From Robiginitomaculum sp. (GTDB lineage: Bacteria; Pseudomonadota; Alphaproteobacteria; Caulobacterales; Maricaulaceae): a DNA stretch of 64,000 nucleotides. Both the position numbers and the translations under genes were made by a program. Under the pieces are notes generated by a model, which was not told the origin of the DNA, did no database searches, and saw only the letters and a list, made by a program, of their open reading frames with translations. Position 1 is the stretch's first letter. Every line of letters starts with the position of its first letter. This document shows positions 495-64,000 of the stretch, piece after piece. The DNA lies in NCBI GenBank assembly GCA_002733495.1, contig NVVV01000007.1, positions 20,744 through 84,743 on the forward strand, in the 5' to 3' direction.

Positions 495-3152
495 ATGCAA
501 AATATGAATGATATACGCGGTGCCTTTTTGCAGTATTTCATCAACGGCAATGGCAAGGCAGATCATGAGCTTATCGCCTCCAGCCCGGTTGTTCCACAAA
601 ACGACCCGACCTTGCTGTTTACCAATGCAGGCATGGTCCAGTTCAAGGATGTTTTTATTGGCGAGGAAACGCGGCCCTATCAGCGGGCGGTAAGTTCGCA
701 AAAATGTATCCGCGCCGGTGGCAAGCATAATGATCTGGATAATGTCGGCTATACGGCTCGCCACCATACATTTTTTGAAATGCTGGGTAACTTTTCCTTT
801 GGCGACTATTTCAAGGAAGAGGCCATTTTTTATGCTTGGGATTTGTTGACAAGAGAGTTTGGCCTATCCAAGGAAAAACTGTTGGTTACCGTTTATGCTG
901 AAGATAAAGACGCGGCGGCGCTTTGGCAGAAAATCACCGGCTTTGACGAGCGCAAGATTATCCGAATTTCAACGTCTGATAATTTCTGGTCCATGGGTGA
1001 CACCGGGCCGTGTGGACCGTGTTCTGAAATATTTTATGACCATGGGGAACAAATCGCCGGTGGCCCGCCTGGCTCACCAGACGAAGACGGCGATCGTTTT
1101 GTCGAGATCTGGAATCTCGTCTTTATGCAGTACGATAAAAAGGCTGATGGCACACGTTTAGACCTGCCAAAGCCGTCTATTGATACAGGCATGGGCCTAG
1201 AGCGCATCGCGGCAGTATTACAAGGCGTGCATGATAATTATGAAACGGACCTCTTCAAAACGCTCATTGCTGCAGGTGAAGAGGCTTTGGGCGTTAAGGC
1301 AGAAGGTGCAGCGTGCGCTAGTCACCGCGTTATTGCAGACCATTTGCGCTCGATCTCCTTTTTGCTGGCTGATGGGGTTACGCCCGCTAATGAAGGCCGT
1401 GGTTATGTGTTGCGCCGCATTATGCGCCGCGCCATGCGTCATGCGCATTTATTGGGGGCCAAGGACCCGATTGTGCATACCTTGGTACCGACACTCATTG
1501 ATCAGATGGGCGAGGCCTATCCAGAACTGGTGCGGGCCAAGGCCTTAATTGAAACCAATGTGTTTCAGGAAGAAGAACGTTTTTTGCGCACTCTTGGCCG
1601 GGGCATGGGCCTGTTGGAAGAGGCCAGTAAAAATCTTGGAAAGGGTGATAAATTGCCCGGTGATGTGGCCTTTAAGCTCTATGATACATACGGTTTCCCA
1701 CTTGACCTGACCGAAGATGCGTTGCGGGCAAAAGAAATATCGGTCGATAAGGGCGGATTTGATGAAGCCATGGCGGCGCAAAAAGCCTCGGGACGCGCCA
1801 ATTGGAAAGGCTCTGGCGATGCCAGGCGGTCCGGCGTTTGGGAAGACCCCAAAAGTGCCGATCTGCCGACAACGCACTTTTTGGGATATGGTGATGAAAC
1901 GGCCTCTGGAAAACTGATTGCGCTTAGCAGTGGTGGGAGTTTGACAGAAGAGGTAGATGCGGGTCAGGACGTTGAACTGGTGTTTGACCAGACACCGTTT
2001 TATGCCGAATCCGGTGGCCAGGCTGGCGATACCGGCATCATTCAGTTTGATAATGGTGCCGTGGTGAATGTGCAGGACACCATCAAGACGGCGCGGGGCC
2101 TGTTCGTACATTTAGGCAAACTGGAAAGCGGCGCTATCAAGGCCGGAGACGCGGCACAGCTTCACGTTGACCATGAGCGCCGTACGGTCATTCGGGCCAA
2201 TCACTCGGCGACGCACCTTCTTCATGCAGCCTTGCGTCGTTATCTGGGGGATCATGTGGCGCAAAAAGGCTCGTTTGTCGGGCCGGACTATTTGCGCTTT
2301 GACTTTACTCATTCTGGGCCTGTGTCTGCCGAGGAAATGCGGACAATCGAGGCCGAAGTGAACGCCATTGTGCGCCAGAATATGGCAGTGCAAACACAGG
2401 AAACAACACCAGAGGCTGCAATGGAAGCCGGCGCTACGGCGCTCTTTGGTGAAAAATATGGTGACAAGGTTCGCGTGCTCAGCCTTGGGCAGGATTTAAA
2501 TGACAAGGATCGTCCTTATTCGATTGAGCTGTGCGGTGGTACCCATGTTGCGCGTACAGGCGATATTGCCCTGATTAAAATCACCGGCCAAAGCAGTGTG
2601 GCCGCCGGTATCCGCCGTATTGAGGCGGTAACCGGGGCGAAGGCGCTGGACTTTGTGTATGGCGAAGAAGAAGCGCTGCACAGTGCGGCGCAATTGCTAA
2701 AGGCTTTGCCAGCGGACCTGCCCAAGCGTTTGGGGCAGGTGTTGGAGGAGCGGCGTAAGTTGGAGCGTGAAGTTTCCGCCCTTCGCAAAGAGATCGCCAT
2801 GGGCGGTGGCAATGGCGGGTGTGAATACATAAACGGCATCGCCTTTGTTGGGCGTGCGGTGAGCGATGTACCCTCGCGCGATTTACGGACACTGGTTGAG
2901 GAAACCCGCAAAAAACTGGATGCTGCTGTGGTGGTTTTTGCCGCAAATAACGAGGGCAAAGCCGCCTTGGCCGTGGGTGTTAGCAAGGACGTGAGCGCGC
3001 GCTTTAGCGCTGTGGATCTGGTGCGGATTGGCTCAGTGGCATTGGGCGGCAAAGGCGGTGGTGGTCGTCCGGATTTTGCGCAGGCCGGTGGCCCGGATGG
3101 CCATAACGCTCAAGCAGCGATTGAGGCCATAAAGGCCGCTTTAGCTAAATAA
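495..3152 (+). CDS. alaS: Alanine--tRNA ligase (host-type copy)
   Basis: Charges tRNA-Ala with alanine in the cytosol and edits mischarged serine and glycine. It is 885 residues, full length for the family. The order is: N-terminal class II catalytic core ([20 protein letters not shown] near 75, [24 protein letters not shown]), tRNA-recognition region, editing domain with the zinc-site HSATH motif and ELCGGTH, then a C-Ala domain with a [16 protein letters not shown] end. The chosen ATG gives [15 protein letters not shown], the usual N-terminus. It lies between recA and icd (icd convergent). A second, clearly diverged alaS of the same length lies at 61027-63684, so one genome would carry two complete alaS genes if the contig were real. 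Confidence 0.97.
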
Positions 3153-52459: not shown

Positions 52460-55081
52460 TTATCCCAACTGGCGACTGATGATTTCATATGCATTTGGGG
52501 ACAGGTCAGGGCTCTTCAAGAGACCTTCCAGGGTTTTTTTGGCAAGCACTGAGCGTTTCGGCTCCAGTTGACGCCAGCTCTCAAATACCCCCAGCAGGCG
52601 CGCGGCCAAAGCCGGGTTTTTCGGATCAATGATCTTGATTTGCCGCGCCAGCAAGGCATAGCCGCTGCCATCCTCAGCATGGAATGCCGCCGGATTTGCC
52701 ATAATAAAAGCGCCGATCAGGCTACGTACCCGATTGGGGTTGTCATAGGTGAAATCCGGGTGTTTGAGTAATCTCTCAACGCGTTCCAGCGCATCCGGAC
52801 AGCTTGGTCCAACCTGAATGGAAAACCATTTATCAATCACCAGCGGATTGGCTTTCCAGTTTTGATAAAACTCATCCAGAGCCGGATTGACCTTTTCACT
52901 GCCTGACTGGCCAAGGGCGATAAGGGCGGCCAGAGAGTCGGTCATATTATCGGCGGCAGTATGGGCTGCTTGCGCCAATGCTCCGCCTTCCTTCGGGCCA
53001 AGACGGGCCAGAATACCAAGTGCTGTGCCATGCAAAGCGCGCCGTCCGGCCCCTTTGGCATCGGGACAGAACTGGCCGTGTTCGCTTGTGCGTTCAACCG
53101 CGTTCATCAAAGCGGCCTTTTGATCATGGGCAAAGGCGGAAAGAATGGCCTCACGAGCGGTATGAATACGCCCGGGATCTGCCGGGGTCATGTGCTGAAA
53201 AGTATCCGATTCCGAGGGGGGCAAGATCGCCAGCGCGGCAAAGGCGGGGTCAATTTTTGCATCAACCGCCAGCGTGCCAAGTGCATCCAAATATGCGGCG
53301 GGGATTTCTGCATGGGGGTTTCCCGCCAGGGCAAGCAGGACGCCCATGCCATAGGCCTGTGCCTCTTCCCAACGGCGCAACAGGTCCGCATCTGTGGTCA
53401 TCAGGCGTGCGCGCTCTTCTGGTGTACGCACCTGTTTAAGAACAACTGGCGCAGAAAATCCGCGCAACACAGACACCAATGGGCGCTCGGTAAGGCCAGT
53501 AAAGCACCAGCTTTGTTCGTCCCTGTCCAGCACCAGAATGCACTCGTCTGGCCCGGCTTCGTTATCATCGTCCAGGGTCATGGGCAGCGGCCCGTTTTTG
53601 CCAACCAAACCTGTGCGGATGGGCATGGGCAAGGACTTTTTATCCGGCTGACCCGGTGTTGGGGGCGTGTGCTGGCGCAAGGTGAGTGTCAGTTCACCCT
53701 TATTCGCATCCCAGTTTTCTTCTACGTGAAGATGCGGCGTACCCGCCTGCCCATACCAGTTTTGGAAATTCGATAAATCCACCCCGGCGGCAGTTTCAAA
53801 GGCACCTAGAAACTGCTCGATCGTGGCGGCGGTACCATCCAGCGTCTCGAAATAATGATCCATACCCTTTTTAAAATTTTCATCCCCAATCAGGGTTTTC
53901 AGCATGCGGACCAGCTCGGCACCTTTTTCATAAATGGTGGCGGTATAGAAATTGTCGATCTTCAGATATTCTTTTGGTCGTACCGGGTGCGCCAGAGGGC
54001 CGGCATCTTCAGGGAACTGGCGCGCACGCAGAGAGATTACATCCTTGATGCGTGAAATGGCCGCCCCGCGCATGGTGGCGGAAAATTCCTGATCGCGAAA
54101 CACGGTCAGGCCTTCCTTCAGGCACAATTGGAACCAGTCGCGACAGGTGATGCGGTTGCCAGTCCAGTTGTGAAAATACTCGTGGGCTACAACGGATTCG
54201 ATCCGTTCAAAATTCATGTCCGTGGCAGTGTCGGCATCGGCCAGCAAAACCGAGGAGTTAAAGACGTTCAGGCCTTTGTTTTCCATGGCTCCGAAATTGA
54301 AATCACGCACGGCGACGATCATGAAAAGGTCCAGATCATATTCACGGCCAAAAACGTCCTCATCCCATTTCATTGATCGTTTCAGGGCGTCCATGGCGTA
54401 AATCGCACGTGGCGCATCGCCCGGGTCCACATAAATGCGTAAGGGAATAACGCGGTCTGACATGGTGGTGAAGCTGTCTTCAATCATGTCAAAGCCCCCG
54501 GCGATCAGGGCAAAAAGATAAGCTGGTTTGGAGAAGGGGTCTTCCCAGCAGGCATAATGGCGATTATTGTCCAGTGTGCCGGACTTAACCAGATTACCAT
54601 TGGACAAAAGCGTTGGAAAATCAGCCACCGGGGCCTCTATACGGGTGGTAAAACGGCTCATCACGTCGGGGCGATCGGGATAAAAAGTAATGCGGCGAAA
54701 GCCCTCGGCTTCGCATTGTGTACAATAGCGCCCGGCAGACATATAAAGCCCGCTCAGCGCGCGATTGTCTCTGGGGGAAAACTGCGTCTCGATCACCAGC
54801 TTAAAATCATCAGGCAGAGCACTCAGGGTCAGGGTATCCTTGCCCAGCACATAGTCTGTCTCAGCCAGCCTCTGGCCATTCACGGCGACACTGATCAGGT
54901 CCAGGTTTTCACCATTCAACACCATGGGGGCCTTTGCATCGCCGGTCCGGCGAGCGTTCATGGTCGAGCGAACCTTTGTGGCCACTGGGTCCAGATTGAA
55001 CTGCAGATCGGTTGTGTCGATGGTGAAAGGGAAGGGGGTGTAATCAGACAGCCGTACAGGCTGTGGGGTATCTGTGCGCAT
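52460..55081 (-). CDS. pepN: Aminopeptidase N (M1 family)
   Basis: 873 residues, near the size of E. coli PepN (870). Cytosolic zinc exopeptidase that removes N-terminal residues. The exopeptidase motif FGAMENKG is at 263-270, the zinc motif HEYFHNWTGNR at 300-310 with Glu of LCLKEGLTV as the third ligand near 323. A C-terminal helical ARM-like region follows. It starts MRTDTPQPVRLSDY. Its stop is 16 bases from the OsmC-like gene, so these may be one operon. Confidence 0.94.
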   Translation of the reverse strand: MRTDTPQPVRLSDYTPFPFTIDTTDLQFNLDPVATKVRSTMNARRTGDAKAPMVLNGENLDLISVAVNGQRLAETDYVLGKDTLTLSALPDDFKLVIETQFSPRDNRALSGLYMSAGRYCTQCEAEGFRRITFYPDRPDVMSRFTTRIEAPVADFPTLLSNGNLVKSGTLDNNRHYACWEDPFSKPAYLFALIAGGFDMIEDSFTTMSDRVIPLRIYVDPGDAPRAIYAMDALKRSMKWDEDVFGREYDLDLFMIVAVRDFNFGAMENKGLNVFNSSVLLADADTATDMNFERIESVVAHEYFHNWTGNRITCRDWFQLCLKEGLTVFRDQEFSATMRGAAISRIKDVISLRARQFPEDAGPLAHPVRPKEYLKIDNFYTATIYEKGAELVRMLKTLIGDENFKKGMDHYFETLDGTAATIEQFLGAFETAAGVDLSNFQNWYGQAGTPHLHVEENWDANKGELTLTLRQHTPPTPGQPDKKSLPMPIRTGLVGKNGPLPMTLDDDNEAGPDECILVLDRDEQSWCFTGLTERPLVSVLRGFSAPVVLKQVRTPEERARLMTTDADLLRRWEEAQAYGMGVLLALAGNPHAEIPAAYLDALGTLAVDAKIDPAFAALAILPPSESDTFQHMTPADPGRIHTAREAILSAFAHDQKAALMNAVERTSEHGQFCPDAKGAGRRALHGTALGILARLGPKEGGALAQAAHTAADNMTDSLAALIALGQSGSEKVNPALDEFYQNWKANPLVIDKWFSIQVGPSCPDALERVERLLKHPDFTYDNPNRVRSLIGAFIMANPAAFHAEDGSGYALLARQIKIIDPKNPALAARLLGVFESWRQLEPKRSVLAKKTLEGLLKSPDLSPNAYEIISRQLG

Positions 55082-55184
55082 GAAAAGAGTCCTGATCAGA
55101 GAGTATGTGATGTTTATGTAAGCACTCTTATTGTCGTCGTCACCCCGCAGGGATAAAGACGAAACAGAAATGCTATGAGAAAGG

Positions 55185-55214
55185 AAAACGGCGGCTCGGT
55201 CGAGCCGCCGTTTT
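55185..55214 (-). terminator. Rho-independent terminator after the M2 peptidase gene
   Basis: A 14-bp perfect palindrome, aaaacggcggctcg with cgagccgccgtttt, about 20 bases beyond the peptidase stop codon on the minus strand. It may also act on transcripts from the other direction. Confidence 0.8.
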
Positions 55215-55234
55215 ACATGTAGTGATAAGAAGGT

Positions 55235-57064
55235 TTACCAGCCGCAGGTGCGGCCTTTGTTTTCTTCTTTCAGATAGTCCATCAGCGGGGCGAAGTATTC
55301 GACAATGGCAGAGCCATCAATTTGCCGGGTGCCAGTAAAAGCTTCCAGCGCATCTGGCCAGGGCTTGGAGGCCCCCATTTCTAGCATGGCGTTAAAGCGT
55401 TTGCCGACTTCCTTATTGCCATAAATCGAGCAACGGTGCAGCGGTCCGGTCCATCCGGCTTGCTCACAGGCGGCCTTTTGAAACTGGAACTGCATGATAA
55501 AGGAGAGGAAATAGCGCAAATATGGCGTGTTGCCGGGAATATGATATTTTGCCCCCGGATCAAACGCATTCATAGGCCGATCCCCCGGCGGCACAATACC
55601 TTGATATTGCTTACGCAATTCCCACCAGGCAGTGTTGTAATCTTCCGGAGCAACCTCGCCGGAGAAGACTTTCCAGCGCCATTTATCCATCAACAGGCCG
55701 AAGGGCAAAAACGCCACTTTATCAAGCGCGCGCTCCATAAGAAGGCCAATATCCTTGCTTTCATCGGGGATCTGGCTTTCGTCCAGCAGGCCGATCTGCA
55801 CCAGATAACGCGGCGTGATGGATAGCGCTATAAAATCGCCAATGGCTTCGTGAAAGCCATCATTAGCACCGTTCTGGAACAAGACCGGCTGGTTCTTATA
55901 GGCCCGCTGGTAATAGTTGTGCCCCAGCTCGTGGTGGATGGTGTTAAAGTCTTCGCCATTCACTTTGGTGCACATTTTAATGCGAATATCGTCCGCACCA
56001 TCAATATCCCAGGCCGAGGCATGACAAACCACGGTGCGGTCTTGTGGCTTGGTAATCAAGGAGCGTTTCCAAAAAGTATCGGGCAAGGGATCAAGCCCCA
56101 AAGACGTGTAAAACCCTTCGCCGGTTTGCACCATTTTCTTTGGAGTATAATTAGCTTCTTTGAGCAATTCCGTCAGGTTATAATCAATGCTGGCACCTTC
56201 GGGTTTGGCAATGTCATACACATTACCCCAGGTTTGTGCCCACATATTGCCCAGAATATCGGCGCGGATCGGCCCTGTTGCCGGTTGCACTTCGTCGCCA
56301 TAATTTTCATTCAGTTTGGCACGAACATAACAATGCAATTGGTCGTAAAGCGGCTCTACCTGACCCCACAGGCGATCAACTTCCTTGGCCATGTCTTCGG
56401 GGGGCATGTCATAGCCAGATAGCCATAATTCGCCCACGTCCTTAAAGCCCAGCTCGCGTGCGCCCTCATTGGCAATCTCAACCATGCGCGCATATTTGTC
56501 GTGCATGGAGGGGGCCGAAGCCATACGCCATTTTTCCCAGATTTCCTTTAGGCGCTCTGGGTCCTTTTCCGTCCCCATCATGACTTCCAGATCATCCAGA
56601 GCCATCTCTTTGCCATCCAGATCAATGGTAGCAGAGGAATAGGCGCTGTCTAAAAAGGTTGTGATGTTGGCCAGCTCCTTGGCCGCTCCGTCTTTGGAGG
56701 GGGCTGGCAGGGTTAGCCCTTGGCTGATGATTTTCATCTTGCGGGCCAGATCATCTTCCAGCGTCAAATCCTTAAAGCGCTTGGTGCCATTGGCATAGCG
56801 AACACCCAGCTCAGTGGATTCCGCGCCTACCCGGGCGGCTAGCCAATTGGTGTCATGATTGATGAAGTTGGCCTGCATCCAGAACACATGGCTGGCATAT
56901 TCATTCATGTCCTTTAAATCGGCCTCGGCCATTTTCACAAAGGCGGCAGCATCATCGGCAGTTGCCGGTGCGGCGTCATCCTTTGCTTTGACCGTGCCCA
57001 TGCCTTGTCCGGAACAGGCGGTAATCAGCACTAGTGCACTGGCGCTAAAGAAAATTTTTTTCAT
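55235..57064 (-). CDS. M2-family peptidyl-dipeptidase (ACE-like) lipoprotein
   Basis: 609 residues from ATG 57064; the frame is open to 57190 but the ATG gives a clean lipoprotein signal (MKKIFFSASALVLITACSG, lipobox ITAC). It is related to angiotensin-converting enzyme: DKYARMVEIANEGARELGFKDVGELWLSGYDM, the zinc motif HHELGHNYYQ (H378, E379, H382) and GFHEAIGD (third ligand near 406). Family members release dipeptides from peptide C-termini. Lipid-anchored in the envelope, so it probably acts on imported peptides. Downstream it has a strong terminator. Confidence 0.9.
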   Translation of the reverse strand: MKKIFFSASALVLITACSGQGMGTVKAKDDAAPATADDAAAFVKMAEADLKDMNEYASHVFWMQANFINHDTNWLAARVGAESTELGVRYANGTKRFKDLTLEDDLARKMKIISQGLTLPAPSKDGAAKELANITTFLDSAYSSATIDLDGKEMALDDLEVMMGTEKDPERLKEIWEKWRMASAPSMHDKYARMVEIANEGARELGFKDVGELWLSGYDMPPEDMAKEVDRLWGQVEPLYDQLHCYVRAKLNENYGDEVQPATGPIRADILGNMWAQTWGNVYDIAKPEGASIDYNLTELLKEANYTPKKMVQTGEGFYTSLGLDPLPDTFWKRSLITKPQDRTVVCHASAWDIDGADDIRIKMCTKVNGEDFNTIHHELGHNYYQRAYKNQPVLFQNGANDGFHEAIGDFIALSITPRYLVQIGLLDESQIPDESKDIGLLMERALDKVAFLPFGLLMDKWRWKVFSGEVAPEDYNTAWWELRKQYQGIVPPGDRPMNAFDPGAKYHIPGNTPYLRYFLSFIMQFQFQKAACEQAGWTGPLHRCSIYGNKEVGKRFNAMLEMGASKPWPDALEAFTGTRQIDGSAIVEYFAPLMDYLKEENKGRTCGW

Positions 57065-57222
57065 GGCTCGTCTCCCCAGTTTCAAGGCCCGTCTGACCCT
57101 GATTTTGGCGAAGTGTAGTCCCATGAGAAGTGACGTCAATGCTGGGATGGATACCATTCCCTGCTTGACGGAACCGCCCGTGCAGCGCACAAGGCGCGAC
57201 TGATCATTCAGGAGTTGAAAAC

Positions 57223-58554
57223 ATGTCCGTCAAGGTCCGTTTTGCCCCCAGCCCTACCGGGAAATTGCACGTTGGGAATATCCGCCCGGCATTGATGAAC
57301 TGGCTGTTTGCCGCGCAATCAGGCGGCGTCTTTATGCTGCGCATTGATGATACGGATTTGGCGCGCTCAACGGTCGCGTTCGAGCAGGGCATTTTTGACG
57401 ATATGAAATGGCTGGGCTTGACCCATGGCGAGACGGCAAAACAGTCCGAACGGTTTGACCGTTATGCGGCGGTTTCCGAAGATTTGAAAGCCCGTGGTTT
57501 TCTCTACCCCTGTTATGAGACGGCTGAGGAATTGGATCGTCAGCGTAAAATTCAACGCAGTCAAAACAAGCCGCCTGTCTATAATCGCGCCGCCCTAAGC
57601 CTAAGCGATGCAGAGCGTACCGCGCTGGAAGCCGAGGGGCGTAAAGCCCATTGGCGCTTCAAACTTTCTGGCGGTTCGGTGCAATGGGACGACGTTATTC
57701 GCGGCGAGCAGAATATTGATACCGCTTCGCTGTCTGATCCGATCCTGATCCGGGGCGATGGCTCTTATCTCTACACTCTGCCCAGCGTGGTCGACGATGC
57801 GGATTTTGGCATATCGCACATTATTCGCGGCGAAGACCATGTGACCAATTCTGCGGCACAGATTGAAATTTTCAATGCCATCGGTGCCAAGGCCCCAGCC
57901 ATGGGCCATCACCCGTTGTTGGTAGGTGCAGACGGGGACAAGCTGTCCAAGCGCCTGGGGAGGCTCTCCATTGCGGGGCTGCGCGATGAAGAAGGCATAG
58001 AGCCGCAGGCGATTTTGTCGCTTTTGGCCAAAATCGGCACATCTGATCCGGTGGAAATTCGCCGTGATCTGGCGCAATTGATTGAAGAGTTTTCTTTTGA
58101 GAAAATTGGCCGCGCCCCGGCGCGCTTCGATCTGACAGAATTGAAGACTTTGAACGCCAAGCTGTTGCATGAAACGCCCTTTGCCGAGGTAAAGGGCAGG
58201 CTGGCTGATCTGCAAATTGACGAGGTCCTGTGGAAGGCCATTCGTGGCAATATCGAAACGCTGGCCGATGTGGCGCACTGGGTGAATGTAGTGCATGGCG
58301 ATATTGCGCCAGTGATTGCTGATGAAGATGTGGATTATATTGCCAAGGCGGCGGCTTTGCTGCCAGACGGTAACCTTGATGAAAACACATGGTCCAACTG
58401 GACAGGCGTTTTGAAAGAAAAGACCGGGCGCAAGGGGCGTGGGCTGTTCCTGCCGCTACGTCTCGCGCTTACTGGCCAAAAACATGGCCCGGATGTTGGT
58501 GGTTTGCTGGCCCTGATGGACCGGGACCGGGTGATAAAACGGTTAAATGGTTAA
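57223..58554 (+). CDS. gltX: Glutamate--tRNA ligase (short GluRS2-like form)
   Basis: 443 residues. Class I synthetase: RFAPSPTGKLHVGNIRPALMNWLFA (HIGH motif as HVGN), RIDDTDLARS, VDDADFGISHIIRGEDHVTNSAAQ and the DKLSKRLGRLS lysine motif. The C-terminal anticodon-binding domain follows. Alphaproteobacteria often carry two GluRS enzymes; this length and HVGN resemble the GluRS2 type that may charge tRNA-Gln, but I cannot separate the two by eye. Start at ATG 57223. Confidence 0.9.
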   Translation: MSVKVRFAPSPTGKLHVGNIRPALMNWLFAAQSGGVFMLRIDDTDLARSTVAFEQGIFDDMKWLGLTHGETAKQSERFDRYAAVSEDLKARGFLYPCYETAEELDRQRKIQRSQNKPPVYNRAALSLSDAERTALEAEGRKAHWRFKLSGGSVQWDDVIRGEQNIDTASLSDPILIRGDGSYLYTLPSVVDDADFGISHIIRGEDHVTNSAAQIEIFNAIGAKAPAMGHHPLLVGADGDKLSKRLGRLSIAGLRDEEGIEPQAILSLLAKIGTSDPVEIRRDLAQLIEEFSFEKIGRAPARFDLTELKTLNAKLLHETPFAEVKGRLADLQIDEVLWKAIRGNIETLADVAHWVNVVHGDIAPVIADEDVDYIAKAAALLPDGNLDENTWSNWTGVLKEKTGRKGRGLFLPLRLALTGQKHGPDVGGLLALMDRDRVIKRLNG

Positions 58555-58559
58555 GCCCC

Positions 58560-58767
58560 TTATGCCGCTTTACCTTTTTGTTTTGGGGTAGCCTTTTTGG
58601 CTCTTGTTTTTCGCCCCTCTGCAGCGGCACGGGCAATTGTGGTGTATAGCTGCCGGACATCAATAGGCTTGCACATAGCCGGTCATGCCGGCCTGGATAT
58701 AATTTTCCTTGTCGCCAGCCATGGCATTGGCCGTCATGGCAATGATGGGAATGTTCTGGTTTGGCCC
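58560..58767 (-). pseudogene. Frameshifted remnant of a response-regulator receiver domain
   Basis: Minus strand translation gives a receiver-domain tail: [30 protein letters not shown], then the frame shifts by one base at about 58671-58674 to [22 protein letters not shown] followed by a Lys-rich end. The two frames together form the end of a hybrid kinase/CheY domain (TANAM...GM..Y..KPI). A TAG stop in the first frame lies just upstream, so the 5' part of the gene is missing. It faces gltX, whose stop codon is only 5 bases away. Confidence 0.6.
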
Positions 58768-58958
58768 CTAGTAATTCGATATGCTCTTGATTGGCTTTCT
58801 TGCGATGCCAACTCCTTATTGCTTTCAGCGATATTGTTGGCACGGTATGCGACCCAAAATAGTGCAATACCAATAAACAGTCCAAGCACTACATCAATTG
58901 CACTCAAGAGAGGTGTGTAACCTTCCTCGTCGCCCTCCGGCTTGACCGGAGGGGCCAT
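58734..58958 (-). CDS. Small hypothetical membrane ORF
   Basis: A 74-residue ORF from ATG 58958 ([18 protein letters not shown]), with one TM segment ([20 protein letters not shown]) and a polar end. Its start lies inside a palindromic repeat (58933-58953), and its end overlaps the receiver remnant in another frame, so it may be truncated or spurious. No family recognised. Confidence 0.3.
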
Positions 58959-59015
58959 TTTGAAGCGCAAAGTGCGTTGGGTTTTCTAATGGGTTCTCCG
59001 GTCAAGCCGGAGAAC
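58933..59015. repeat. Inverted pair of REP-like palindromes
   Basis: Hairpin 1 (58933-58953) is ccctccgg-cttga-ccggaggg; hairpin 2 (58993-59015) is gttctccgg-tcaag-ccggagaac. The cores CCGGCTTGACCGG and CCGGTCAAGCCGG are reverse complements, so the two units are inverted relative to each other. Typical of short intergenic palindromic repeats. Confidence 0.6.
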
Positions 59016-59033
59016 AACGGCTGTAAAGGGTTA

Positions 59034-59252
59034 AAGCCCCTCACCCTAACCCTCTCCCCAAGGAGAGGGGATAAAACTACGGTGTGTTGAGCGGTACTTC
59101 CTCTCCTATAGGGAGAGGAATGAGGTGAGGGGATCGGGCTTTGAAATAGACCCCAATCAAAATTTCATCTTTGGCTTCATAAGCCCCTCACCCTAACCCT
59201 CTCCCCAAGGAGAGGGGATAAAACTACAGTGTGTTGAGCGGTATTTCCTCTT
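59034..59252. repeat. Two direct copies of a ~71-bp palindromic intergenic repeat
   Basis: Copy 1 begins at 59034 and copy 2 at 59181; both start aagcccctcaccctaaccct, continue with a hairpin ctctccccaaggagaggg and end in a gtgttgagcggta-ttcctct stretch. They differ by only a few bases over about 71 positions. Copy 1 is followed by a near-inverse tail (gtgaggggatcgggctt at about 59125-59141), making a large stem-loop. No gene lies between 58971 and 59286 apart from these elements. This resembles the CCCTCACCCTAACCCTCTCCCC-type repeat seen in many proteobacteria. Confidence 0.65.
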
Positions 59253-59286
59253 CCCAAGGGAGAAGGAATAAGACTCGCTTTTTTCC

Positions 59287-60006
59287 CTAAAGCCAGACGC
59301 GATGGTGTTCGCCGTTTTTCATAAAATAAAACGGGATGGGGCGGTTTGGCTCGCCCAGGCGTTTCTGGACTTCATCCAAGACAATGCTGGTGATGATCGG
59401 CAGGTCCAGCACCTGCGCTTCTTTCAGGGTGTACCAGTCCAGCCCCTCCAGCTCGCTGCTGGCGACGCATTCAGGCAGGTCGATCAGATCATCGGCGCGG
59501 GCGGTAAAAAACCAGGTGTCAAAACGCTTTGGGTGATAAGGCGGGGTGATGGCGCGGGCGGTCAGGCGCAAGGCCCCCAGATCAGCACCCAGACCCCGTG
59601 TGGTAAAGCCTTCCCACCCCTTGGGGGCTTTGGTTTTGCGAGGGGCATCAAGCGGGCGCGCCAGCAACAGGCCGGTTTCTTCAAAGGTTTCGCGGATGGC
59701 GGCGGCGCTGGCCGCAAGGGCGCGGCCCGGGGGTAAATGCCGTTCCAGCACAGCCTGTGTCTCGGGCAATAATGGCGCGGCGCTGGGGGCAAAGGTATCG
59801 CTGCGTTCAGCCTTGCCGCCCGGAAAAACCGTCTTTGAGGGCATAAAGCCATGCCCTGCGGCGCGTTTGCCCATAAGGATTTGCGGGTTTTTCGGATCGC
59901 CGCGCAGCAAGATCAGCGTTGCCGACAGTTTGGGGCGCGCGGCCCGGCCCTTGCGGGGGTTGTCGGCGGGATCGGTGTCGCGTTTATGTTTCGTTGCGCG
60001 TGTCAT
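59287..60006 (-). CDS. NUDIX hydrolase
   Basis: 239 residues. A NUDIX hydrolase: KLSATLILLRGDPKNPQILMGKRAAGHGFMPSKTVFPGGKAERSD, an insertion, then REtfEEtG (AIRETFEETGLLLARPL). The Nudix box is intact but split by a roughly 40-residue insertion between GG and REx2EExGx. N-terminus is basic (MTRATKHKRD). It overlaps the RNase R C-terminal stop by four bases; in alphaproteobacteria an rnr-NUDIX pair is common. Substrate unknown. Confidence 0.85.
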   Translation of the reverse strand: MTRATKHKRDTDPADNPRKGRAARPKLSATLILLRGDPKNPQILMGKRAAGHGFMPSKTVFPGGKAERSDTFAPSAAPLLPETQAVLERHLPPGRALAASAAAIRETFEETGLLLARPLDAPRKTKAPKGWEGFTTRGLGADLGALRLTARAITPPYHPKRFDTWFFTARADDLIDLPECVASSELEGLDWYTLKEAQVLDLPIITSIVLDEVQKRLGEPNRPIPFYFMKNGEHHRVWL

Positions 60007-61025
60007 TTCTGTCTCTTGCGCCTGTGCTTGGCGGCTTTTGCTTTGCCGTGTTTTGCCCCAGGCGGGCCACGACGGGGGCCGCTGCCCCGTGCAGGGCGCG
60101 TGCCAGGGGCGGGCGGGGTTAGCATTTCAAACAGCAGACCGCCGGTCAAAGGCGTGGCCTCCATCAGCTCGGCCTTGACCGCCTGTCCCAGTGTATAGCG
60201 TCCGCCGCTCTCGCGGCCCACAAGGGCGTGGGCTTTTTCATCATGGACAAAATATTCAGCACCCAATTGGCGGATCGGCACAAAGCCATCAGCGCCGGTT
60301 TCGTCCAGCCGTAAAAACAGGCCAAAGCGGGTCACGCCGGAAATGCGCGCGCTAAATGTATTGCCCACATGCTCTGACAGATAACTGGCGATATAGCGCC
60401 CGGTGGCTTCGCGCTCGGCGGCCATGGCGCGTCGCTCAAACCCGGTAATATCTTGCGCAATGGCTTTGAGCTGGCTTTGCTCACTATCCGAGGCCCCATC
60501 ATGGCCCAGCGCGCAGGCGCGGATCAGGGCGCGGTGCACAATCAGATCGGCATAGCGGCGGATGGGCGAGGTAAAGTGGGCATAATGGTTTAAATTGAGG
60601 CCAAAATGGCCAATATTCTGGGTGTCATAAATGGCCTGCATTTGCGTGCGCAGCACCATTTCATTGACAATCTCGGCGTATTTTCCGTCTCTGGTCTTGC
60701 TGATCAGGGTGTTAAAGCGCTTGGTGGTGGCGCGCTCGCCCTTGGCCCATTTAATGTCGATGGTGCGCAAAAAATCTGAAAGCGCATGCAGACTAAGCGC
60801 TTCTTGGTAAACATCTGAATTGTAACATTCTTCCGCGGCCTCAACCGATGGAAATCGCGCCACGACATTGCGGGGCCGTTCGCGCCCTTCAAGCTGAACA
60901 AAACGCCCACCGCGCGCGATGAATACACCGCCATGCGCGGCAATCGCTTCGGTTGCCAATTTGGCGTATTTTCCATACGCCACATCATCCGTCACCGTCA
61001 CATGTGCAATCCAAAGTGCGCCCAT
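60003..61025 (-). CDS. rnr: Chimeric ORF: RNase R C-terminal part joined to a DUF1330-like N-terminus
   Basis: 340 residues that no single family explains. Residues 1 to about 78 (IAHVTVTDDVAYGKYAKLATEAIAAHGGVFIARGGRFVQLEG...FPSVEAAEECYNSDVYQEALS) are the start of a DUF1330-like protein of about 95 residues, which follows alaS in Rhodobacterales. From about 80 (LHALSDFLRTIDIKWAKGE) the protein is RNase R: NEMVLRTQMQAIYDTQNIGHFGLNLNHYAHFTSPIRRYADLIVHRAL (RNB core), an S1 domain (ISGVTRFGLFLRLDETGADGFVPI) and a basic tail. The RNase R catalytic Asp residues lie in the missing N-terminal part, so this piece is not an active nuclease. Both parts are cut off mid-domain. The gene start is shared with the alaS stop on the minus strand. 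Confidence 0.85.
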   Translation of the reverse strand: MGALWIAHVTVTDDVAYGKYAKLATEAIAAHGGVFIARGGRFVQLEGRERPRNVVARFPSVEAAEECYNSDVYQEALSLHALSDFLRTIDIKWAKGERATTKRFNTLISKTRDGKYAEIVNEMVLRTQMQAIYDTQNIGHFGLNLNHYAHFTSPIRRYADLIVHRALIRACALGHDGASDSEQSQLKAIAQDITGFERRAMAAEREATGRYIASYLSEHVGNTFSARISGVTRFGLFLRLDETGADGFVPIRQLGAEYFVHDEKAHALVGRESGGRYTLGQAVKAELMEATPLTGGLLFEMLTPPAPGTRPARGSGPRRGPPGAKHGKAKAAKHRRKRQK

Positions 61026-61026
61026 C

Positions 61027-63684
61027 TTAATTCTCCAATACTGCTTCTGCGGCCTTGATGGCTGCGTCTGAATTTGTCACATCTCGACCACCGCCCTGCG
61101 CCATGTCAGGACGTCCGCCGCCACCTTTGCCGCCCAATTCGGCAACCGCAGCGCGTACCAAATCAACGGCCGAAATCTTGTCTTTCAAGTCATCCGTCAC
61201 GCCAGCAGCGACGGCAGCCTTACCACCAGTGTCCGCTATCAACAGCACAACACCGCTGCCAATCCGTGCTTTATGTTCGTCAATCAGCGACGGCAAATCT
61301 TTGCCCGTGACCCCGGTAAGAACTTGAGAAACGATTTCAATGCCGTTGATTTCGCGCTTTTCCTGTGTGGCTTGATCGCCACCAGACATCGCCAGTTCAC
61401 GCCTTAGCTGTGCCACTTCGTTGCTCAGTTCGCGCACCTTGCTTTGTTCCGCCTTGATCCGGGCAACCAATTGATCCGGCGTGGTTTTGAACTCGGATAA
61501 CGCAGAATTCAGAACAACTTGCATTTCGCGCCCGTGCCGCGTTGCCGCAACACCTGTCAGCGCCTCAATTCGGCGCACGCCAGAACTGCTTGCACTGTCG
61601 CCCAGCAAGATAAACTCACCAATATCGCCAGTCCGTTCAACATGTGTGCCACCGCAAAGTTCAAGCGAATAGGTTTTGCCGCTGGCGCCTTTGCCGGAAC
61701 CCGGTTGGAGCCCCATAGACACAACCCGCACTTCGTCACCGTATTTTTCGCCAAACAAAGCCTGTGCACCCATGCCGCGTGCATCATCCGGCGTCATCAC
61801 CCGGGTTTCAACCGGCGCGTTCTGGCGGATGAATGTGTTCACTTCGCCCTCAACTCTGTCCAATTCTTCAGCGGTCAACGGCCTGCTATGGCTGAAATCA
61901 AACCGCAACCTGTCCTGTGCATTCAGCGATCCACGCTGTGCCACATGATCCCCCAAAGCCCGCCGCAACGCTTCGTTCAACAAATGTGTTGCAGAGTGGT
62001 TGGCCTGAATGCCCCTACGTCGCTCGTGATCTACCGCCAGCGTCGCCGCTTCTCCGCTACGAATTTCACCTTCGGTTACTTCAGCAATATGGACGAACAC
62101 ACCTGCGTTTTTTCGCGTATCCGTCACCCGGGCAACGCCGTTGTCGGTGCGAATAATGCCGTTGTCGCCAACCTGCCCGCCGCTTTCCGCATAAAACGGT
62201 GTCTGGTTCAGCGCAATTTGGATCGTTTCCCCGGCCTTAGCCACGTCAACACTGGCCCCATCCCGCACCAAGGCAACAATCTGTCCCTCAGCGTTTTCAG
62301 TATCATAGCCCAGAAAATCCGTCGCTCCATGCGCATCGGCGACATCAAACCAGATCGTCGCATCCGCAGATTCGCCGGTCCCGGACCAAGCGGCACGGGC
62401 CTTGGCCTTTTGTTCGGCCATTGCTGAATCAAACCCATCGGTGTCAACCGTCCGGCCCTTTTCGCGCAACGCATCCTGCGTCAAATCAAGCGGGAAACCG
62501 TATGTATCATATAACTTAAACGCCGTTTTCCCGGGCAAGGCGGCCCCGTCTTCCAGATCAGCCAATTCATCGTCCAAAAGCCGCAAACCCCGATCAAGGG
62601 TTTGTTTAAACCGAATTTCTTCTTGCTTTAGGGTGTCTTCGATCAACGCCTGAGCCTGTCCCAGTTCGGGATAAGCCGCGCCCATTTGTTGCACCAAAGC
62701 CGGCACCAAACGGTGCATCAAGGGGTCTTTAGTGCCCAATAAATGCGCATGACGCATCGCGCGCCGCATAATCCGACGCAGCACATAGCCACGCCCGTCA
62801 TTAGACGGCATCACGCCGTCGGCCAATAAAAATGAGGTCGAGCGTAAATGGTCGGCAATCACCCGGTGATGCGTGCGTCCCGGCCCATCCGGATCGGTGC
62901 TGGTCGCCTCGGCACTTGCCTCAATCAGGCTGCGCATCAGGTCTGTTGCGTAATTATCGTTGGTGCCCTGCAACAACGCGGCAACGCGCTCAATGCCCAT
63001 GCCCGTATCAATCGACTGATTTGGCAGTTCTTTGCGGGTTCCGTCCTCAAATTGTTCATATTGCATGAACACGAGGTTCCAAATTTCCACAAACCGATCG
63101 CCGTCCTCATCTGGGCTGCCCGGAGGGCCACCCCAAATATGGTCGCCGTGGTCAAAGAAAATTTCGGAACACGGCCCGCATGGCCCGGTTGGCCCCATCA
63201 TCCAAAAATTGTCGTTGGTTGGGATACGAATAATGCGATCATCGCCAATCCCTGCAACCTTTTTCCAGATGTCCGCAGCTTCATCATCGGTATGGTAAAC
63301 TGTGATAATCAGCCGTTCTTTCGGGATATCGAGCTCTTTTGTCAACATTTCCCACGCAAAGAGAATCGCGTCCTCTTTGAAGTAATCGCCAAAACTGAAA
63401 TTACCCAACATTTCAAAGAAGGTATGATGGCGTGCAGTATAGCCAACATTGTCCAGATCATTGTGCTTGCCCCCGGCCCGCACACATTTTTGCGACGTCG
63501 TTGCGCGCTTATAATCCCGTGTCTCAAGCCCGGTAAACAGATTCTTGAACTGCACCATGCCCGAATTTGCAAACATAAGCGTCGGATCATTGCGTGGGAC
63601 CAGCGGACTTGAATCCACCACCTCATGCCCATGCTTTGAGTAGTAGGACAAAAACGTCGATCGGATATCATTCAGCGTTGGCAT
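61027..63684 (-). CDS. alaS: Alanine--tRNA ligase, second copy (Rhodobacterales type)
   Basis: 885 residues. Full set of motifs as in the first copy: [55 protein letters not shown] (editing His ligands), [13 protein letters not shown], and the C-Ala end [16 protein letters not shown]. It begins [30 protein letters not shown], typical of Rhodobacterales AlaS. It differs widely from the copy at 495-3152. It is preceded by a recA tail plus terminator (63830-64000) and followed by a DUF1330-like start, the local order of Rhodobacterales, but both flanks are broken by hybrid frames. Confidence 0.95.
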
Positions 63685-63766
63685 TTGGGAACTCTTCGCA
63701 GGCAGAATTTACAGGTTTCGAAGGTTTAGCGGCCTGCTTGCCGACTGTCCACAGTGCGATAAAGCA

Positions 63767-63795
63767 AACAAGACGCACCATTGATGCGTCTTGTT
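63767..63795 (-). terminator. Rho-independent terminator after the RecA-like tail
   Basis: An 11-bp perfect stem, aacaagacgca with tgcgtcttgtt, loop of 7 bases, between the stop codon at 63830 and alaS. On the minus strand it is followed by tttgcttt. It has the position of a recA terminator, as at 417-445 in the left locus. Confidence 0.75.
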
Positions 63796-63829
63796 CCGTG
63801 TTCGTTAGTTGAAACAACAACTGGGTTGA

Positions 63830-64000
63830 TTAAGCCTCAAGAATGTCATCGTTGGCTTTGTCCTTGAAATTCGGCGGTGCCGAAAACTCAAGCCCGTGCG
63901 CAGCTCGGATTTTGTCTTCAATCTCATGCCTGAAATGCCGGATCAGGCCCTGCACCGGCCACGCCGCCGCATCGCCAAGGGCGCAAATGGTGTGGCCCTC
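63830..64000 (-). CDS. Hybrid C-terminus: NuoF-like segment joined to a RecA-like tail (partial)
   Basis: The open frame covers 56 residues to the window edge. Its first part [29 protein letters not shown] is the conserved end of NADH-quinone oxidoreductase subunit F (NuoF), the FMN subunit of complex I. The last part, [13 protein letters not shown] and a short acidic end DDILEA, does not match NuoF; it lines up with the tail of the RecA encoded at 1-387 ([11 protein letters not shown]). Because alaS follows it, as it follows recA at the left end, a RecA tail is expected here. The switch is near 63905-63925. Confidence 0.7.

Follow-up and report, generated by a model that had tools for sequence, protein, structure and literature searches.

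Chimeric contigs that arise by misassembly are a known type of error in metagenome-assembled genomes, and misassemblies are described as relatively rare in the GUNC paper's account of them (PMC8201837). In the chimeric contigs of that account, fragments of several source genomes stand together in one contig, and the contig studied here (C76) resembles them in this respect: it carries two alaS genes, a duplicated housekeeping gene, and its lineage changes along its length. As far as that account goes (PMC8201837), we see no essential difference between the two; in the present case, both the branch node and the missing partner contig can be identified. Another described system that bears on the locus is RNase R (rnr, TIGR02063), whose C-terminal third is fitted by residues 78-302 of the ORF analysed here; the ORF differs in lacking the N-terminal two thirds, which are found on another contig, C10.

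The window, that is, the whole stretch of 64,000 nucleotides that was analysed, comprises positions 20744-84743 of C76 (84752 bases) in a draft genome of 3.19 Mb and 82 contigs, with a listed completeness of 87.89 and contamination of 5.15. Within it, an ORF joins DUF1330 to part of RNase R in one frame. We conclude that this fusion ORF is almost certainly a chimeric join from metagenome library preparation or assembly and not a real gene. The observations that carry this conclusion are an rnr split between two contigs, an exact overlap of these contigs up to the join, the assembler's k of 99, the different lineage of the sequence beyond the join, and a second join at the far end of that sequence. 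The features concerned are as follows.

495..3152, plus strand: resident host alaS on the same contig (TIGR00344; 77-78% to the two best full-length same-genus AlaS)
59287..60006, minus strand: NUDIX gene, which follows rnr in the host genus (Pfam NUDIX, no NCBIfam match; seven of seven same-genus stretches)
60003..60791, minus strand: 3' part of the host rnr (RNase R, from LHALSDFL to the stop), read as falsely headed by DUF1330 (TIGR02063 481-710; rnr of relatives)
60693..60791, minus strand: stretch of 99 bases equal to the terminal 99 bases of C10, read as an assembly-graph branch node with k=99 (identity to C10)
60791..60792, no strand: junction 1, assigned as chimeric, between host rnr and Rhodobacteraceae-like DUF1330 (identity to C10 stops exactly there)
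60792..61025, minus strand: 5' part of a Rhodobacteraceae-like DUF1330 gene, 78 codons, without the last ~17 codons (PF07045 2-79 of 94)
61027..63684, minus strand: foreign alaS of Rhodobacteraceae type, the second copy on the contig (TIGR00344; identity comparisons)
63830..63925, minus strand: recA tail of Rhodobacteraceae type, last ~31 codons, upstream neighbour of alaS (Rhodobacteraceae alaS loci)
63908..63925, no strand: junction 2, assigned as chimeric, between the recA tail and a nuoF fragment, somewhere within the EIEDKI stretch
63908..64000, minus strand: nuoF fragment at the contig end, the contig extending 9 bases beyond the window (Pfam PF10589)

Architecture of the fusion ORF

On the minus strand, positions 60003-61025 form a single ORF of 340 codons, in which DUF1330 comes first and the C-terminal third of RNase R second. 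Its DUF1330 portion matches Pfam PF07045 at residues 3-79 (profile positions 2-79 of 94, E 9e-28), with a score of 96.9 bits against a gathering threshold of 23, yet the match stops at position 79 of 94. Pfam RNB and S1 domains follow at residues 87-169 and 220-285, and TIGR02063 (RNase_R) aligns residues 78-302 to its positions 481-710 of 711, at 259.4 bits, below the curated cut-off of 597.85 for a full-length RNase R. Both families are truncated within the one frame, as a previous reading of the same DNA, made from the sequence only, had described, and the join, which that sequence-only reading had placed within 60786-60803, sits at 60791/60792, the point where identity to C10 ends.

The two parts of rnr and the contig overlaps

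A profile search of the draft genome for RNase R returned two main pieces, covering profile positions 2-515 on C10 and 481-710 on C76, and seven further matches that were weak, short and confined to positions 617-709. On C10 (8840 bases), a GTG-started rnr ORF of 521 codons lies directly after topA and is open at the contig end. Over its final 99 bases, C10 shows full identity to window positions 60791-60693, and at the next base the two contigs diverge, C10 leading into rnr and C76 into DUF1330; the two profile ranges overlap by about the 33 codons that are common to both contigs. This identity over 99 bases, together with the divergence at the join, indicates that rnr is split between the two contigs and that C76 took a wrong turn. 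The suggested search for an intact rnr and an intact DUF1330 gene elsewhere in the assembly yielded neither: rnr is divided between C10 and C76, and the draft genome holds no other DUF1330 gene at E 0.001.

Contig ends were compared over the first 400 bases of every contig except C82 (81 of 82), along with the far ends of C10 and C76. Identical starts of at least 18 bases in the same direction were found in C2/C36, C12/C37, C18/C45, C21/C61 and C53/C54, and the identity extended over exactly 99 bases in all five pairs; C15 and C81 also have 97-98 bases of the C2/C36 stretch, offset by one or two bases. Four end-to-end contig matches reach only 18-31 bases, one of them being of a contig with itself. 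Because five pairs of starts each share exactly 99 bases, the k of the assembler is taken to be 99 and the join to lie on a branch of the graph. In this assembly, we therefore take an overlap of 99 bases to mark a graph node, and the DUF1330/rnr join coincides exactly with the edge of one.

Two of these pairs, C18/C45 and C53/C54 (L032/L170 and L178/L179), remain 92-93% alike over 275-400 bases beyond the exact 99 bases, and may be strain variants that were binned together.

The rnr neighbourhood in the host genus

In all seven same-genus stretches compared (G012, G006, G010, G017, G007, G003 and G004), topA, an uncut rnr that matches both C10 and C76, and the NUDIX gene are adjacent, which agrees with the earlier assignment of the rnr-NUDIX pair to the host. 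Neither DUF1330 nor the foreign alaS was found in these seven topA-rnr-NUDIX stretches at E 1e-10. The 3' part of rnr is 79-87% identical to the rnr of six same-genus genomes and less so to others. When the fusion protein was searched against 30 relatives, 28 gave a match (G002 and G009 gave none), and each best match begins at residue 68 or later; a separate weak match to DUF1330, at 28-36% identity, was present in 5 of the 30. The occurrence of the same fusion in related genomes had been named among the findings that would speak for a genuine gene, and it was found in none of the 30 relatives.

No tRNA genes were found in window positions 55000-64000. Between the NUDIX gene and gltX, an 83-nt intergenic repeat is present in two direct copies (window 59034-59263), which are 93% alike and 147 nt apart, with an inverted copy of a 22-nt arm between them.

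Lineage of the alaS-DUF1330 piece

The foreign AlaS reaches 78% identity to Rhodobacteraceae proteins (among the at least 585 alaS loci listed). Its identity to full-length same-genus AlaS is 55-59%, with 67-70% for N-terminal fragments from G002 and G016, and it is 58% identical to the resident copy (495-3152) on the same contig. By these AlaS identities, the two sides of the join come from different lineages.

A search with the foreign AlaS gave at least 585 loci, and gene order was compared in the best 80 of them. In this sample, 45 of the closest 50 loci (all except L087, L091, L098, L099 and L102) have DUF1330 after alaS, no more than ~400 bases from where the alaS match ends, and none of the 30 more distant ones does. 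The titles of the closest 50 are mostly those of Rhodobacteraceae or Rhodobacterales genera, and the earlier attribution of the DUF1330-after-alaS arrangement to Rhodobacterales thus holds in this sample. None of these 80 loci contains a match to the rnr part. Whole DUF1330 genes after alaS are mostly 93-98 aa long; the 78 residues encoded here are 39-84% identical to their counterparts in the 45 loci, and at least 63% identical in 39 of them, the difference being that the C-terminal ~17 residues are lost at the join.

At the DNA level, a class sample of 385 genomes and a sample of the best-hit family (313 scored of 394) contained no genome with an identical foreign piece; the best matches, at 78% identity, were to G653 (2887 of 2893 bases, extending up to the join) and to the congeneric G801. 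The named AlaS matches suggest that the family of these best-hit genomes is Rhodobacteraceae. Since no identical piece occurs in the sampled genomes, the donor is placed to family only. A comparison of composition across the join, which had also been proposed, points only weakly to a change: GC and GC3 do not distinguish the two sides, and the tetranucleotide distance of the foreign piece is only moderately extreme, with 4 of the 115 host windows at the same or a greater distance.

The second join at the contig end

The foreign piece is ~3.1 kb long, from 60792 to about 63910, and is flanked by two unrelated joins. At its far end, a RecA tail is preceded in frame by a NuoF fragment at the contig end. 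The position of recA upstream of alaS is that found in Rhodobacteraceae loci, e.g., L055, L062, L092 and L095, the gene in L055 being RecA by TIGR02012. The nuoF fragment (~102 bases) is 91% identical to the assembly's own nuoF on C62 and 96% identical to that of two same-genus genomes, G012 and G006. Junction 2 lies within an 18-nt stretch that codes for EIEDKI in both genes and agrees with the C62 copy at 15 of 18 positions. On C76, rnr and nuoF have the same orientation, whereas in G010 and G007 a distance of 53-58 kb separates the two genes, which are encoded on opposite strands. A piece with unrelated joins at its two ends is not accounted for by insertion into a single locus.

Origin of the join

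The chimeric join that the sequence-only reading had considered likely is supported by the 99-base overlap with C10, the k of 99, the uncut rnr of relatives, the Rhodobacteraceae-like alaS and DUF1330, and the presence of two alaS genes. On this explanation, the host has the usual order of topA, rnr and NUDIX, and its rnr is divided into a 5' part on C10 and a 3' part on C76. At the k=99 node, the assembler would have run C76 into ~3.1 kb of Rhodobacteraceae-like DNA (DUF1330, alaS and the recA tail) instead of C10; the far end of this piece is itself joined to a nuoF fragment that resembles those of the host genus. That the frame stays open across junction 1 is attributed to chance (one in three), and no fused protein is expected to exist.

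A real rearrangement, in which ~3 kb of Rhodobacteraceae DNA entered rnr by illegitimate recombination and left a DUF1330-headed, truncated RNase R in a minority strain of the host, would also account for an ORF that is open across the join and for a break with hardly any shared sequence, as in end joining, and the intact rnr obtained via C10 could then belong to the unrearranged strain. However, the foreign piece runs into the nuoF fragment and never back to rnr or topA, and the order of rnr and nuoF on C76, compared with G010 and G007, is not produced by a simple insertion or deletion. The nuoF piece is also closer to two sibling genomes (96%) than to the assembly's own nuoF (91%), the fusion is absent from all 30 relatives, and the exact 28-base junction word was not found in viral contigs; we regard such a rearrangement as very improbable. 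Still less credible, and close to dismissal, is a conserved family of DUF1330-RNase R fusion genes, which the genomes examined do not support. The single ORF itself is what speaks for it; against it stand the same 30 relatives, the whole rnr in all seven same-genus stretches, the absence of the rnr part from the 80 best alaS loci (of at least 585), including the 45 with DUF1330 next to alaS, and an open-access full-text search in which no paper mentioned DUF1330 and RNase R together.

If the join is chimeric, as we conclude, the false link would derive either from chimeric reads, by ligation or template switch, or from a wrong choice of path, which are indistinguishable from contigs alone. C76 passes through the branch node, unlike a plain unitig, so the assembler had some support for this path, and the near-absence of shared sequence at junction 1 is not easily explained by pure k-mer confusion; both count against the chimeric explanation, as do the slight contrast in composition and the lack of an identical donor piece in the sampled genomes. 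In the three closest DUF1330 relatives fetched (G653, G550 and G669), the Ser codon is directly followed by CATGCG, compared with CTGCATGCG in the host rnr. From these relatives, ~1 base is predicted to be common to donor and host at the break, and, 3 bases past the junction, a similar word begins that is at most 9 bases long (CATGCGCTT in G550). The earlier proposal that the join lies at a short shared sequence is accordingly not supported at the break itself. With ~1 base predicted in common, a chimeric read or a wrong path is likelier than pure k-mer confusion, and low-k confusion at a shared word is an unlikely source of junction 1.

Consequences for the draft genome

Recognition of the chimera prevents a false fusion protein from entering databases, and the final ~3.2 kb of the contig, which includes the second alaS, should be treated separately. 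Such chimeras can be tested for without reads, by means of a partner contig whose overlap at the join is exactly k bases long and a k obtained from other contig ends. Duplication of a single-copy gene such as alaS can raise contamination estimates and mislead marker-gene trees; in this genome, the marker-based contamination estimate could be raised by the two full-length alaS genes that C76 carries, which differ in lineage.
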